DNA of 42,483 nt from an uncultured Bacilli bacterium. Its GTDB lineage: Bacteria > Bacillota_I > Bacilli_A > RF39 > UBA660. The translations under genes were made by a program, and so were the position numbers. The stretch lies in assembly GCA_944355355.1 (NCBI GenBank), contig CALVQE010000006.1, positions 1-42,483 of the forward strand, read 5' to 3'. Below, in pieces: positions 1,540-17,223 of this stretch. The notes under the pieces were generated by a model, which made no database searches, had not been told where the DNA came from, and saw only the letters and a program-made list of their open reading frames with translations. The first letter of the stretch is position 1; each line of letters starts with the position of its first letter.

Positions 1540-2868
1540 TCAATTCCCCGATAACCGATAAGGATTAGAAGCAGTCCCATCACCACTTGAAAGAGCACCG
1601 CCTTTAATATTAACCACTGGTTTCACACCTCTTGATTGTCCAATTATTCCAATACCCCCTGAGTCTCCTTGGGAATTTATAAGCATCATATATGCAGTCC
1701 CGCTATAACTATTTGGAGTCATAGTAAAATAACTATTACCAGTATACAAATAATAATTTGTATTATCATGTATATTAGCACCAGCAACATAAGATTCATC
1801 TGTTGTAACAAGTCCGATCGGATAACTTAAATCGCCATTGCCTGTGACTTCATCATCTACAGTAAATCGATCATTTTGGTTTGAACATGTAAGATACACA
1901 TCCCTTGAGCTGTACCATCTATAATAGGTCGTATCAGTTCCTATTCCCGTTCCACTAAAAACACTTCGATCATTACAAAATAAGGTATCACTGATATAAC
2001 TTGATAAGCCTTTATCTTCAATATTTGTTTTATACCAATTATCTAAATAGGTTTTAATGGTACTAGCATTCGTATTGGCATGGGTATCTTCATAGGTGCT
2101 AGCACCTAATGTTCCATACATATAACCTACATACGCATTATTATCATAATAAAAATTATAGGCACTTGTTCCAACTTGACGATCTTCACTAGACTCACCA
2201 TTAGCGTGGGCACTTGTTCCATCATAGATGATTCTTATAGAACCATCGCCATTGATACGGATGATTCGCCAATAATAATCACCAAATTTAACATAGTTAT
2301 TAGTAACATTACCACGATAGTAATAACTTGTCCCATAATCGTCTGGGGCACTACATAAGTAGCCATTCTCGCTTTCTTCACCTGTTACTTGAATCATTCC
2401 ATCGTCATTTACAGTTGGACAACCTTCAGTATCTACATCTGCAATAATACTACATTGAATGGAATCAGCACCATACTTACTGACACACTCATCATAAGGT
2501 GTACTCTCTTTAAAATACAAAGTACACTTTGTATGTGTCGTTGTTAAATTCTGAACCTCTAGACTCCAATCATCCATATTTAATAATGGTGTTGCTCCAT
2601 TCGTACAACTAGATTTTTCTGTATCTAATACATAGCCACTATCTTTTGAGGGCATCGTCTTACTTATGACATCATCTACATAAAAGGCAAAATATAAATC
2701 TCCTGGATCTTCAACTGTTCCATTAATAACATTAAAGTTTTGATCTTGTTCATATATAGCAAAACTACTATAAAGATATACTCCTGTAATTAACAGGATA
2801 CAACAAACTGTAAAGATTAGGATTCCAACCTTCTTATTATCTCTTTCTTTAAACTTTTCTAACTTCAT
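1540..2868 (-). CDS. Membrane-anchored surface protein, poly-G promoter
   Basis: Uncharacterised secreted protein of 442 residues. ATG at 2868 is chosen because GGTGA lies 7 nt upstream and AGGAGG slightly further; the longer open frame to 2928 would start with a TTG inside the -35 box. The N-terminus is positively charged (MKLEKFKERDNKK) followed by one hydrophobic segment (about residues 14-36) and a long extracellular part with several cysteines. The C-terminal half contains YYWRIIRINGDGSIRIIYDG (about residues 200-220) and ends with SGDGTASNP. The same features occur in the protein at 16114-17223, so the two are paralogues. The layout resembles DUF6273-type surface domains common in gut Firmicutes, but that assignment is from memory. 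It sits between recA and rny and ends in tandem terminators. Expression is probably switched by the poly-G promoter. Confidence 0.8.
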   Translation of the reverse strand: MKLEKFKERDNKKVGILIFTVCCILLITGVYLYSSFAIYEQDQNFNVINGTVEDPGDLYFAFYVDDVISKTMPSKDSGYVLDTEKSSCTNGATPLLNMDDWSLEVQNLTTTHTKCTLYFKESTPYDECVSKYGADSIQCSIIADVDTEGCPTVNDDGMIQVTGEESENGYLCSAPDDYGTSYYYRGNVTNNYVKFGDYYWRIIRINGDGSIRIIYDGTSAHANGESSEDRQVGTSAYNFYYDNNAYVGYMYGTLGASTYEDTHANTNASTIKTYLDNWYKTNIEDKGLSSYISDTLFCNDRSVFSGTGIGTDTTYYRWYSSRDVYLTCSNQNDRFTVDDEVTGNGDLSYPIGLVTTDESYVAGANIHDNTNYYLYTGNSYFTMTPNSYSGTAYMMLINSQGDSGGIGIIGQSRGVKPVVNIKGGALSSGDGTASNPYRLSGN

Positions 2869-2896
2869 ATAAAAATCACCATAGCCTCCTATGATG

Positions 2897-2928
2897 ATTA
2901 TACATGAATACCCCCCCCCCGTTGTCAA
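2897..2928 (-). promoter_or_regulatory. Candidate phase-variable promoter with poly-G spacer
   Basis: On the minus strand a perfect -35 TTGACA (2928-2923) and a perfect -10 TATAAT (2902-2897) are separated by 20 bases, ten of which are an uninterrupted G run (2920-2911). Optimal spacing is 17, which would need seven G residues. Slipped-strand changes in such tracts are known to tune promoter strength, for example at Neisseria porA. The predicted transcription start is at or next to AGGAGG, giving a leader of about 20 nt. Confidence 0.8.
2911..2920 (-). repeat. Homopolymeric (G)10 tract
   Basis: Ten consecutive C residues on the plus strand, read as G on the transcribed strand, in a genome that is otherwise strongly AT-rich. 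No other G or C run of comparable length was seen in the window. It lies between two consensus promoter boxes. Confidence 0.95.
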
Positions 2929-2968: not shown

Positions 2969-4003
2969 CTATTCATCTTTTACCTTCTCTTCCTCTTCCA
3001 CTTTAAAACCATAATGTTTACGTACTTGATTTTCAATCTCTTTCATCAAAGCTTTATTTTCTCTTAAGGTAGCCTTAACATTTTCCTTACCTTGACCAAT
3101 CTTCTCGCCTTTATAAGCATACCAAGCTCCAGATTTATCTAAAATATTTAAATCAGATGCAATATCAATAACTTCACCTTCTCGAGACACACCTTCGCCA
3201 TACATAATATCAACAGTTGCTGTCTTAAATGGTGGAGCTACCTTATTTTTAACTACTTTAATATTTGTCTTATTTCCTAAAATTTGATCTCCAACTTTAA
3301 TTTGTTCTCCTCTACGAACATCAAGACGAATAGTCGCATAAAATTTTAAAGCCCTTCCTCCCGGAGTCGTCTCAGGATTACCAAACATAACCCCAACCTT
3401 CTCACGCAACTGATTAATAAAAATAGCCGTAGTCTTCGTCTTATTAATAGTACCAGATAACTTTCTTAAAGCTTGACTCATCAATCTTGCTTGTAAGCCA
3501 ACATGAGAATCTCCCATATCCCCTTCAATTTCAGCTCTAGGAACTAAAGCAGCAACAGAGTCAACAACAATAATATTTACAGCCTCACTGCGCACTAAAG
3601 CCTCACAAATTTCCAAAGCTTGTTCTCCAGTATCGGGTTGAGATAACAAAAGTTCATTAATATCAACACCCAAATTTTTTGCATAAACTGGATCTAAAGC
3701 ATGCTCAGCATCAATAAATGCTGCTCTTCCTCCTTCTTTTTGAACTTCAGCAATAGCCTGAAGAGCAAAAGTTGTTTTACCAGAAGATTCAGGACCATAA
3801 ATTTCAATAATTCTTCCTTTAGGATAACCACCAACACCCAAAGCAATATCAAGTGCTAAAGACCCACTAGAAGTAACATCAATCTCCATATGTTCTTTAG
3901 CTCCAAGCTTCATAATAGCTCCTTTACCAAACTGTTTTTCTATATCAGCCAAAACTTGTTCTAAGGCCTTATCTTTATCTTTAACATCTTTTGTTGTTTT
4001 CAT
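2969..4003 (-). CDS. recA: Recombinase RecA
   Basis: ATP-dependent strand-exchange protein for homologous recombination and SOS induction. About 344 residues, the family's usual length. Walker [10 protein letters not shown], Walker [12 protein letters not shown], the L2 region around [20 protein letters not shown], and an acidic C-terminus (EEEEKVKDE) are all present. Three in-frame starts compete: GTG at 4018, ATG at 4009 and ATG at 4003. The last is chosen because GTGAG lies 10 nt before it; 4009 is almost as good. It follows pgsA as in Bacillus, but without the usual cinA. It has its own promoter with a LexA-type box, so SOS control is expected. Confidence 0.97.
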
Positions 4004-4029
4004 AAACATAAATCTCACTTTCTGATTTA

Positions 4030-5280: not shown

Positions 5281-5617
5281 AATAACTTATAAGCCTTGTT
5301 CTGTACGTCTTAGACGCGACAAATATTTATCTACCATCACTGGTCTGCTCTATCATTCATTTCTTAAGAGCAGCTCCCCTACCATAATTTGGGTTTCTCA
5401 CTTGCGGGGTTTACCACGTTCCACTTCCAAGGTTTCCCTTTTCTTCGTCACTTTGGCACTTTTATATCTACTAAAACCATTTAAGGTTTCCTCGAAGCCG
5501 TTAGAGATTTACTCTACCTTAGGTTATTTTTTCCCTAAGCGCAAACACTACAACCATCTCAGGCTGTGTGAGCAAGGACTTTCCTCTACATAGTATATAT
5601 GCAGCATTTGTCTAGTT
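5281..5617 (-). ncRNA. rnpB: RNase P RNA, class B (Firmicute type)
   Basis: Catalytic RNA of RNase P, which matures tRNA 5' ends. The minus strand carries the conserved GAGGAAAGTCC block near the 5' end and ACAGAACAAGGCTTA near the 3' end, with total length and internal landmarks as in class B RNAs. The ends can pair as helix P1 (AATAACT near 5620 with AGTTATT near 5281), followed by a T-rich tail that may terminate transcription. The 5' end falls on the gpsB stop codon. Exact ends are uncertain by about 10 nt. The gpsB-rnpB adjacency is known in Bacillus. Confidence 0.93.
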
Positions 5618-5944
5618 ATTATTATATTTTCCATAAACAAACTTTTCAAGTTGACTAATTCTCCGTAACAAATCAACATTGCTAACTCCAGAATCACTAC
5701 TTGAAGATTCTTGACTCTCAAGCTCAGTTTCCAACTGTCTAATCTGTTGCTTTAGACTAGCATTTTCCTCTCTAAGCTTTTGATATTCCTTTTCATATCC
5801 CCTTACAATTCTTATAAATTCAGAATAATCTTTAATAATAATATCTAAAAAATTATCCACTTCTTGAGGGCGATATCCACGAGCATCAATCTTAAATTCC
5901 TTCTCATAAATTGCTTCTGGACTCAAAACGATTTTATCATTCAT
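5612..5944 (-). CDS. gpsB: Cell-division protein GpsB (DivIVA family)
   Basis: Adaptor that couples penicillin-binding proteins to the division site. The 110-residue protein has the DivIVA/GpsB N-terminal domain (FKIDARGYRPQEVDNFLD, about residues 17-34) followed by a coiled coil (about 55-85) and a Ser-rich linker. ATG at 5944 is chosen because GAGGA lies 10 nt upstream; the GTG at 5953 is too close to it. The last three codons (Asn-Asn-Asn) and the stop overlap the 5' end of rnpB. A good promoter lies just upstream. Confidence 0.93.
   Translation of the reverse strand: MNDKIVLSPEAIYEKEFKIDARGYRPQEVDNFLDIIIKDYSEFIRIVRGYEKEYQKLREENASLKQQIRQLETELESQESSSSDSGVSNVDLLRRISQLEKFVYGKYNNN
5621..5649 (-). 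promoter_or_regulatory. Candidate rnpB promoter inside gpsB
   Basis: Minus-strand -35 TTGAAA (5649-5644) and a perfect -10 TATAAT (5626-5621) with a 17-base spacer, lying within the last codons of gpsB. Transcription would start near 5614, at the 5' end of RNase P RNA. In AT-rich DNA such matches can arise by chance, but the spacing and position fit. Confidence 0.6.
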
Positions 5945-16113: not shown

Positions 16114-17223
16114 ATGAGTAAAATAAACGAATTATGGACAAACTATAAAAAACAAATCATAATTGGCTTAGCTGCCTTTTTAGCATTAATAATCATTATT
16201 ATAATTATTATCGTTCTAGTTAATGTCTTCAAAAAATATGACTATACTTCATTAGAACAATTACTTGTTAAAACCACTGAAGAATATATCGATGATCATC
16301 CTGAAATATTGCCAACGATGGCAAATCCCCAAAGCATTGTAGATACATCCTCATTAGTGGAAGGAAAATATCTAAAAGATCTTTCTAAAATAAGTAAAGA
16401 TAACACCTGTTCAGCAGAAATAAAAATAAACTGGAACGAAGACAACTACTATATTATTCCCAAACTATCTTGCAACAGTTACACAACATCAAGCTTAACA
16501 GATCACATCTTAGAAAATGAAACGATCGTAGATAACGAGACAGACAGTGGTTTATATGACATCAATAATCACTACACCTATCGTGGTGAATATGTAAATA
16601 ATTATCTCAACTTTATGGGCTATTCATGGCGCATCATCAAATTTGATACCGAAAAAATATACTTTATTTTAGCCGACACCTTAAACAACAAAATGACCTA
16701 TGTATACGACGATCGTTATAACGAAAGTATTAGTTCTAACCGTGGCTATAACACTTTTGAAACAAGCCGTATCTATTCCTCATTAATGGACATTTATAAT
16801 AATGATCTTAAAAACTATCACAAATATTTACTAACCATGGACGCTTGCACCCATACTAGAAGTGAAGGAGACATTGATAAAAGTGGCGCAATTGAATGCA
16901 CAAGTATCTTACAAACACCTATTTCCTTATTAAGTGTCTATGATTATATGAATGCTTCCATTGATCAAAGATGTATAAACAGTGCATCTAGAAACTGTTC
17001 AAACTACAATTATCTAGCAAGTACAACCAACCGCTGGTGGCTAATGAATGGAACAAACGAAAACACTTATGAAGTCTATGCATCAAACCAAAGCGGTATC
17101 CTAAACTTAGAATCAGCTAATGCGAAAAAAGCGCTAAGAATGGTTCTTGCCATACCAAGTGACTTAATCTATAAAAGTGGCGATGGAACTTCTTCCAACC
17201 CTTATACTTTCTATGAATATTAA
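16114..17223 (+). CDS. Membrane-anchored surface protein, paralogue of 1540-2868
   Basis: 369 residues with a short basic N-terminus, one strongly hydrophobic segment rich in Ile (about residues 15-39) and a long outer region. The module YVNNYLNFMGYSWRIIKFD (about residues 163-182) matches the WRIIRIN region of the protein at 1540-2868, and both end with SGDGT-[SA]-SNP followed by a few residues. Cysteines occur in the outer region. AAGGAG lies 8 nt before ATG. It is a single gene between rpsD and a shared terminator. No enzymatic motif seen; possible DUF6273-like domain (recalled, not searched). Confidence 0.8.
   Translation: MSKINELWTNYKKQIIIGLAAFLALIIIIIIIIVLVNVFKKYDYTSLEQLLVKTTEEYIDDHPEILPTMANPQSIVDTSSLVEGKYLKDLSKISKDNTCSAEIKINWNEDNYYIIPKLSCNSYTTSSLTDHILENETIVDNETDSGLYDINNHYTYRGEYVNNYLNFMGYSWRIIKFDTEKIYFILADTLNNKMTYVYDDRYNESISSNRGYNTFETSRIYSSLMDIYNNDLKNYHKYLLTMDACTHTRSEGDIDKSGAIECTSILQTPISLLSVYDYMNASIDQRCINSASRNCSNYNYLASTTNRWWLMNGTNENTYEVYASNQSGILNLESANAKKALRMVLAIPSDLIYKSGDGTSSNPYTFYEY

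Follow-up and report, generated by a model that had tools for sequence, protein, structure and literature searches.

A dispersed poly-G promoter cassette upstream of surface-protein genes in uncultured gut Bacilli, with features of a phase-variable switch

The promoter considered here lies in a 42,483-nucleotide stretch of DNA from an uncultured Bacilli bacterium (the whole of this stretch is called the window below), between recA and a gene for a membrane-anchored surface protein, with recA ending 40 bp upstream of the promoter and in the same orientation. Read on the minus strand, the promoter has the order TTGACA-AC-G10-TATTCATG-TATAAT, followed by AGGAGG and the ATG of the surface-protein gene. 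The features are as follows:

2969 to 4018, minus strand: recA (Pfam RecA, E 5.5e-142)
2923 to 2928, minus strand: -35 element TTGACA, read directly; the same in all six G10 copies of the genome and in an interrupted copy
2911 to 2920, minus strand: poly-G tract of 10 G (coding strand) inside the -35/-10 spacer, from direct reading and from shuffle and run counts
2897 to 2902, minus strand: -10 element TATAAT, read directly; spacer of 20 bp
2885 to 2890, minus strand: Shine-Dalgarno sequence AGGAGG, read directly
2874 to 2899, minus strand: leader hairpin AATCATCATAG-GAGG-CTATGGTGATT, from a terminator-like call and RNA folding
1540 to 2868, minus strand: surface-protein gene, 442 amino acids with an N-terminal membrane anchor, ATG at 2868

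The two boxes, the ten G residues and the 20-base spacer named in the original prediction are exact on direct reading, and the membrane-anchored product that it expected downstream is borne out by one N-terminal membrane segment in a frame of 442 codons. Overlapping the -35 element there is an inverted repeat, TGTCAA-11-TTGACA (2923-2945), a possible operator, which is also found in contig C4, shortened in C45 and C24, and absent from C7, C11 and C15. Elsewhere in the window, positions 5285-5619 hold a class B RNase P RNA (Rfam RF00011, 267.5 bits).

The same prediction held that such a run is not expected by chance, and the counts agree: shuffled windows contain on average 0.11 matches to G8, and never three overlapping ones as observed. 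The window's own genome (G000, 1.37 Mb) has one run of G7, none of G8, two of G9 and six of G10, while about 0.1-0.2 runs of at least nine G would be expected from base composition; this gap between background runs and long G runs suggests selection. All six G10 runs sit in near-identical promoter cassettes on six contigs, with the consensus TTGACAAC-G10-TATT(CA/TG)TG-TATAAT, and the DNA upstream is unlike among most copies. Five of the six precede paralogous or analogous surface-protein genes, and the sixth reaches a contig end. A seventh copy (contig C24), in which A residues interrupt the tract (AGGGGGGGAGG), precedes a pseudogene that carries a premature stop and has kept just its 3' part; here, in a natural case, tract and gene have decayed together. 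The tract was thus wrongly taken to be special to one gene, being one of six copies of equal length plus an interrupted one. The gene at 16114, put forward as a paralogue with a tract-free promoter, makes a weak control, its resemblance to the window protein being confined to two patches of about 110 residues in all.

Some further features of this genome should be mentioned. The sixth cassette (L012 5242-5370, at the end of contig C11) enters, near the expected start codon, what resembles the 5' end of a group II intron; this fragment, GTGTGCC...GGTGAAAGTCC, is cut off by the contig end, and an Rfam search with it gave no match. One of the two G9 runs (L014 2330-2338, contig C35, minus strand) lies between TTGATA and TATAAT directly 5' of a ybeY-like ATG, where slippage might act on either the ribosome-binding site or the promoter spacing of a core gene. 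The other (L011 5137-5145, contig C10, minus strand) lies within a short frame, MNFKKILRGGG..., that closely precedes a phage-tail-like gene, and is a possible frameshift switch in a prophage.

The genes following the cassettes are of a distinct kind. An N-terminal hydrophobic segment is present in 77 of the 85 proteins encoded after poly-G promoters in the family, compared with 17 of 84 for background open reading frames, and in a mixed set the figures are 54/70 and 95/407; the test is a simple hydropathy test and the paralogues are not independent. No family in Pfam or NCBIfam was found for the window protein, and its AlphaFold2 model is of low confidence (pLDDT 48), with an anchor helix at residues 4-37. 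Most of the downstream proteins tested are likewise without a Pfam family, and related family members show weak C-terminal similarity to DUF6273. One copy in G235 precedes the gene of UDP-galactopyranose mutase, a surface-glycan gene.

Poly-G tracts between the -35 and -10 boxes of surface genes, which the original prediction had thought worth looking for in related genomes, are indeed present there, in up to about 45 cassettes per genome. Relatives were searched with the pattern TTGACANN-G6-N(2-26)-TATAAT, the reversed pattern serving as control. Matches occurred in 13 of 291 genomes of the family sample (10 genera) and in 18 of 385 genomes of the order sample, a single genome having as many as 38 perfect copies (38 in G315, 35 in G299, 23 in G355), while the reversed pattern gave no match in any genome of the two samples. 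With a relaxed -35, G080 has about 45 cassettes, and G341, which belongs to the window's genus and carries another cassette type, has about 40 raw matches; single-copy cassettes occur in many genomes. A second arrangement, TTGACAAAAnTATryG(8-11)TATAAT, in which the tract lies against the -10 instead of the -35 box, is found in other families of the class. That all of this might be chance runs or an artefact of assembly is hardly credible: the assemblies are drafts and many cassettes lie near contig ends, but the run counts are far above expectation, the reversed and poly-C controls are zero and the cassette recurs in independent assemblies and taxa.

In a scan of GTDB contigs, the matches listed include Faecalibacterium lipoprotein promoters, Lachnospiraceae, Selenomonadaceae, Coriobacteriales and Helicobacter, and low-copy matches in GC-rich genomes may include chance ones. 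High-GC Faecalibacterium genomes have a repeated cassette of their own, TTGACACC-G7/8/10-TATGCTATAAT, 5' of lipoprotein genes (stretches L099, L110, L115, L124, L149 and L152), apparently an independent case.

A hint of slippage comes from tract lengths in these relatives. Thirty-eight copies in G315 are identical outside the tract and differ only in the number of G (6 to 10); over all 40 copies of this genome there are one G6, eight G7, 23 G8, six G9 and two G10. Smaller differences are found in G250 (7 or 9), G442 (8 or 9), G355 (8 or 9) and the main cassette of G235 (9 or 10), and four of the 12 loci that could be paired between G080 and G355 by their upstream flank differ by one G. The window's genus behaves otherwise, as all 13 uninterrupted tracts of the TTGACAAC type in two of its species (G000 and G437) are exactly G10, which under a spread like that of G315 would have a probability of about 0.0008; one G080 cassette type is similarly uniform, with 15 of 15 tracts at G9. 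Both observations speak for a fixed part of the promoter, by which the tract would be of constant length and would serve DNA geometry or contact with a regulator or with RNA polymerase, with no slippage switch involved. We consider this unlikely, since at identical flanks tract length differs by one G or a few in G315, G250, G442, G235, G355 and further genomes, and the second arrangement, with its tract against the -10 box, indicates that no fixed position is required. It should also be noted that assemblers may collapse minority tract lengths, and because a consensus assembly hides these, a tract that is constant in a draft may still be subject to slippage. The tprL tract of Treponema pallidum, for example, has nine G in most molecules, with 7 to 11 coexisting (PMC7864442), and a G10 tract of Bifidobacterium breve recovered from mice has additions and losses of about 10-12% (PMC9187656).

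Spacing offers a separate line of evidence. Perfect TTGACA/TATAAT sites of the ordinary kind in five genomes, some of which are chance sites according to reversed controls, peak at 17 bp (64 of 139; 94 of 139 at 17-18 bp), both in G000 and G437 (25/53) and in G080, G299 and G315 (39/86). Poly-G promoters avoid this value: 17 bp is found in 9 of 151 and 17-18 bp in 13 of 151, a contrast whose P value is nominal, as the copies are related. Their most frequent spacers are 15 bp (G315 and G299), 16 bp (G080 and G355) and 20 bp (G000 and G437), and changes in tract length can reach the 17 bp that the host prefers. Such off-17 spacing fits a default weak or OFF state that slippage would reverse, by a slip of one to four bases for ON; that poly-G promoters would be mostly weak or OFF follows from the dependence on spacing reported for tp0126 and porA. 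Alternatively, the DNA of the G tract may itself shift the spacing optimum. Three G437 copies carry an extended -10 (TGn), which may lessen their dependence on spacing.

More puzzling is the orientation of the tract, as the cassettes always have G on the coding strand. Poly-C at the same promoter position was found in none of 291 family genomes and none of 392 genomes of a phylum sample, compared with 13 and 17 genomes, respectively, for poly-G. IMG/VR contigs, which contained no clear cassette members and serve as background, have no strand bias (47 poly-G and 45 poly-C matches). The ordinary spacers of G000 and G437 are richer in G than in C (158 against 91), and coding-strand G-richness may contribute, but it seems too weak to account for the total absence of poly-C. 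A change of spacing alone predicts no strand preference, and this strictness counts in favour of the tract as a fixed part of the promoter; strandedness is the least explained part of the switch that we propose.

In the window the promoter is joined to a hairpin, formed in RNA by AAUCAUCAUAG-GAGG-CUAUGGUGAUU, which begins inside the -10 box, holds the ribosome-binding site in its loop and is followed by a T run. It folds with -12.2 kcal/mol (z -4.8), and none of 200 shuffles was as good; the stretch between recA and the -35 box, when folded, showed no structure. A transcript begun at the expected site, some 7 bp past the -10 box, lacks most of the 5' arm and cannot form the hairpin. Read-through into the surface gene, with recA as its possible source, is likely, because recA has the same orientation and its end is 40 bp away; the hairpin could end or silence such RNA. 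The hairpins by which transposons block the translation of read-through RNA are a parallel. The same design recurs with unrelated sequence in G315 (z -4.9), where several copies also follow a terminator-like hairpin, but it is absent in G080 and G355 and hence not universal. Covariation of base pairs gives the hairpin no support, which comes from its stability and its recurrence in unrelated sequence.

Conservation of the cassette amid differing upstream DNA might also mean that cassettes serve mainly as recombination homology, through which surface genes are exchanged among expression sites, the tract promoting recombination or being passive. Between G080 and G355, loci with matching upstream flanks can bear different promoter types (L401/L356 and L383/L355), which suggests that whole surface-gene cassettes are exchanged at fixed sites, and a G-rich element is used in the recombination of Neisseria pilE. 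As the main role of the cassette we nevertheless find this improbable, more so than a fixed promoter part: 8-10 G in one run is little to build a stable quadruplex from, a lone cassette, as in many genomes, has no partner there, and recombination leaves unexplained why the run is flanked by a good -35 and a good -10 box.

We therefore interpret the site, with a probability of roughly 0.7, as a dispersed, self-insulated, phase-variable sigma-70-type promoter cassette, in which poly-G slippage switches single surface genes. The slippage-tuned promoter put forward originally remains the best explanation on account of the dispersed cassettes of the relatives, their length variation at constant flanks and their off-optimum spacing; in the genus of the window, no length change was observed for this type of cassette (all 13 intact tracts at G10). 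The coding-strand poly-G would gain or lose G by slipped-strand mispairing and thereby change the -35/-10 spacing. At 20 bp, the assembled state of all uninterrupted G000 copies, the promoter should be weak or OFF; with two to four G fewer, the spacer would measure 16-18 bp and the gene would be turned ON. With one cassette per surface gene, cells of the same clone would differ in the set of surface proteins that they express, and these sets would mostly be small, to the presumed benefit of the cells. In the window's genus, a hairpin that only read-through RNA can form would hide the ribosome-binding site or end transcription and so make the gene depend on its own promoter. A more far-reaching reading is tentative and in our view rather doubtful as a whole: a spacer-length lottery over dozens of surface proteins in uncultured gut Bacilli, with insulated promoters that by default lie off 17 bp, each cell expressing one or a few of the proteins, and with coding-strand G needed for something beyond length.

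A 2025 review counted among the major open questions the seeming confinement to pathogens of genomes rich in phase-variable loci, and suspected database bias (PMC11868660). Uncultured gut Bacilli, in which a genome can have as many as about 45 candidates, with one candidate switch per surface gene, make this question testable with existing metagenome reads. Our literature searches, which covered few subscription journals, yielded no account of promoter families of this kind in the bacteria concerned, in agreement with the original prediction, which knew of no precedent in this group.

The spacer-length mechanism itself is known, most familiarly from pathogens such as the agents of meningococcal disease and syphilis. 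A poly-G tract between the -35 and -10 boxes of Neisseria meningitidis porA sets, by its length, spacing and transcription, and the tract at the same position in T. pallidum tp0126 allows transcription best at a spacing of 17 (PMC7864442). The window promoter shares with both the position of the tract, the surface gene and a 17-bp optimum within reach, and from this likeness it would be expected to work as they do. However, porA is one locus of a pathogen, and tp0126 is a single gene for an outer-membrane protein in another phylum, the other poly-G tracts of T. pallidum lying elsewhere in promoters; here the cassette occupies 6-45 loci in uncultured gut Bacilli and in some genera has a leader hairpin. 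In Mycoplasma systems of the vlp type, multi-copy genes for surface lipoproteins likewise have a homopolymer in their promoter regions, but it is poly-A and the genes are usually clustered, whereas poly-G and loci scattered over the genome are found here. Among gut commensals, slippage of G-runs controls surface structures in B. breve, including its pilus, and as far as the accessible text goes the tracts studied are intragenic frameshift switches, further G-tracts in promoter spacers are mentioned, and a dispersed promoter family is not described (PMC9187656). Apparently new are the host group, the spread of such promoters over dozens of genes of uncultured gut bacteria, the strandedness and the built-in hairpin; the strict strand orientation and a hairpin beginning inside the -10 box are design features that had not been anticipated.
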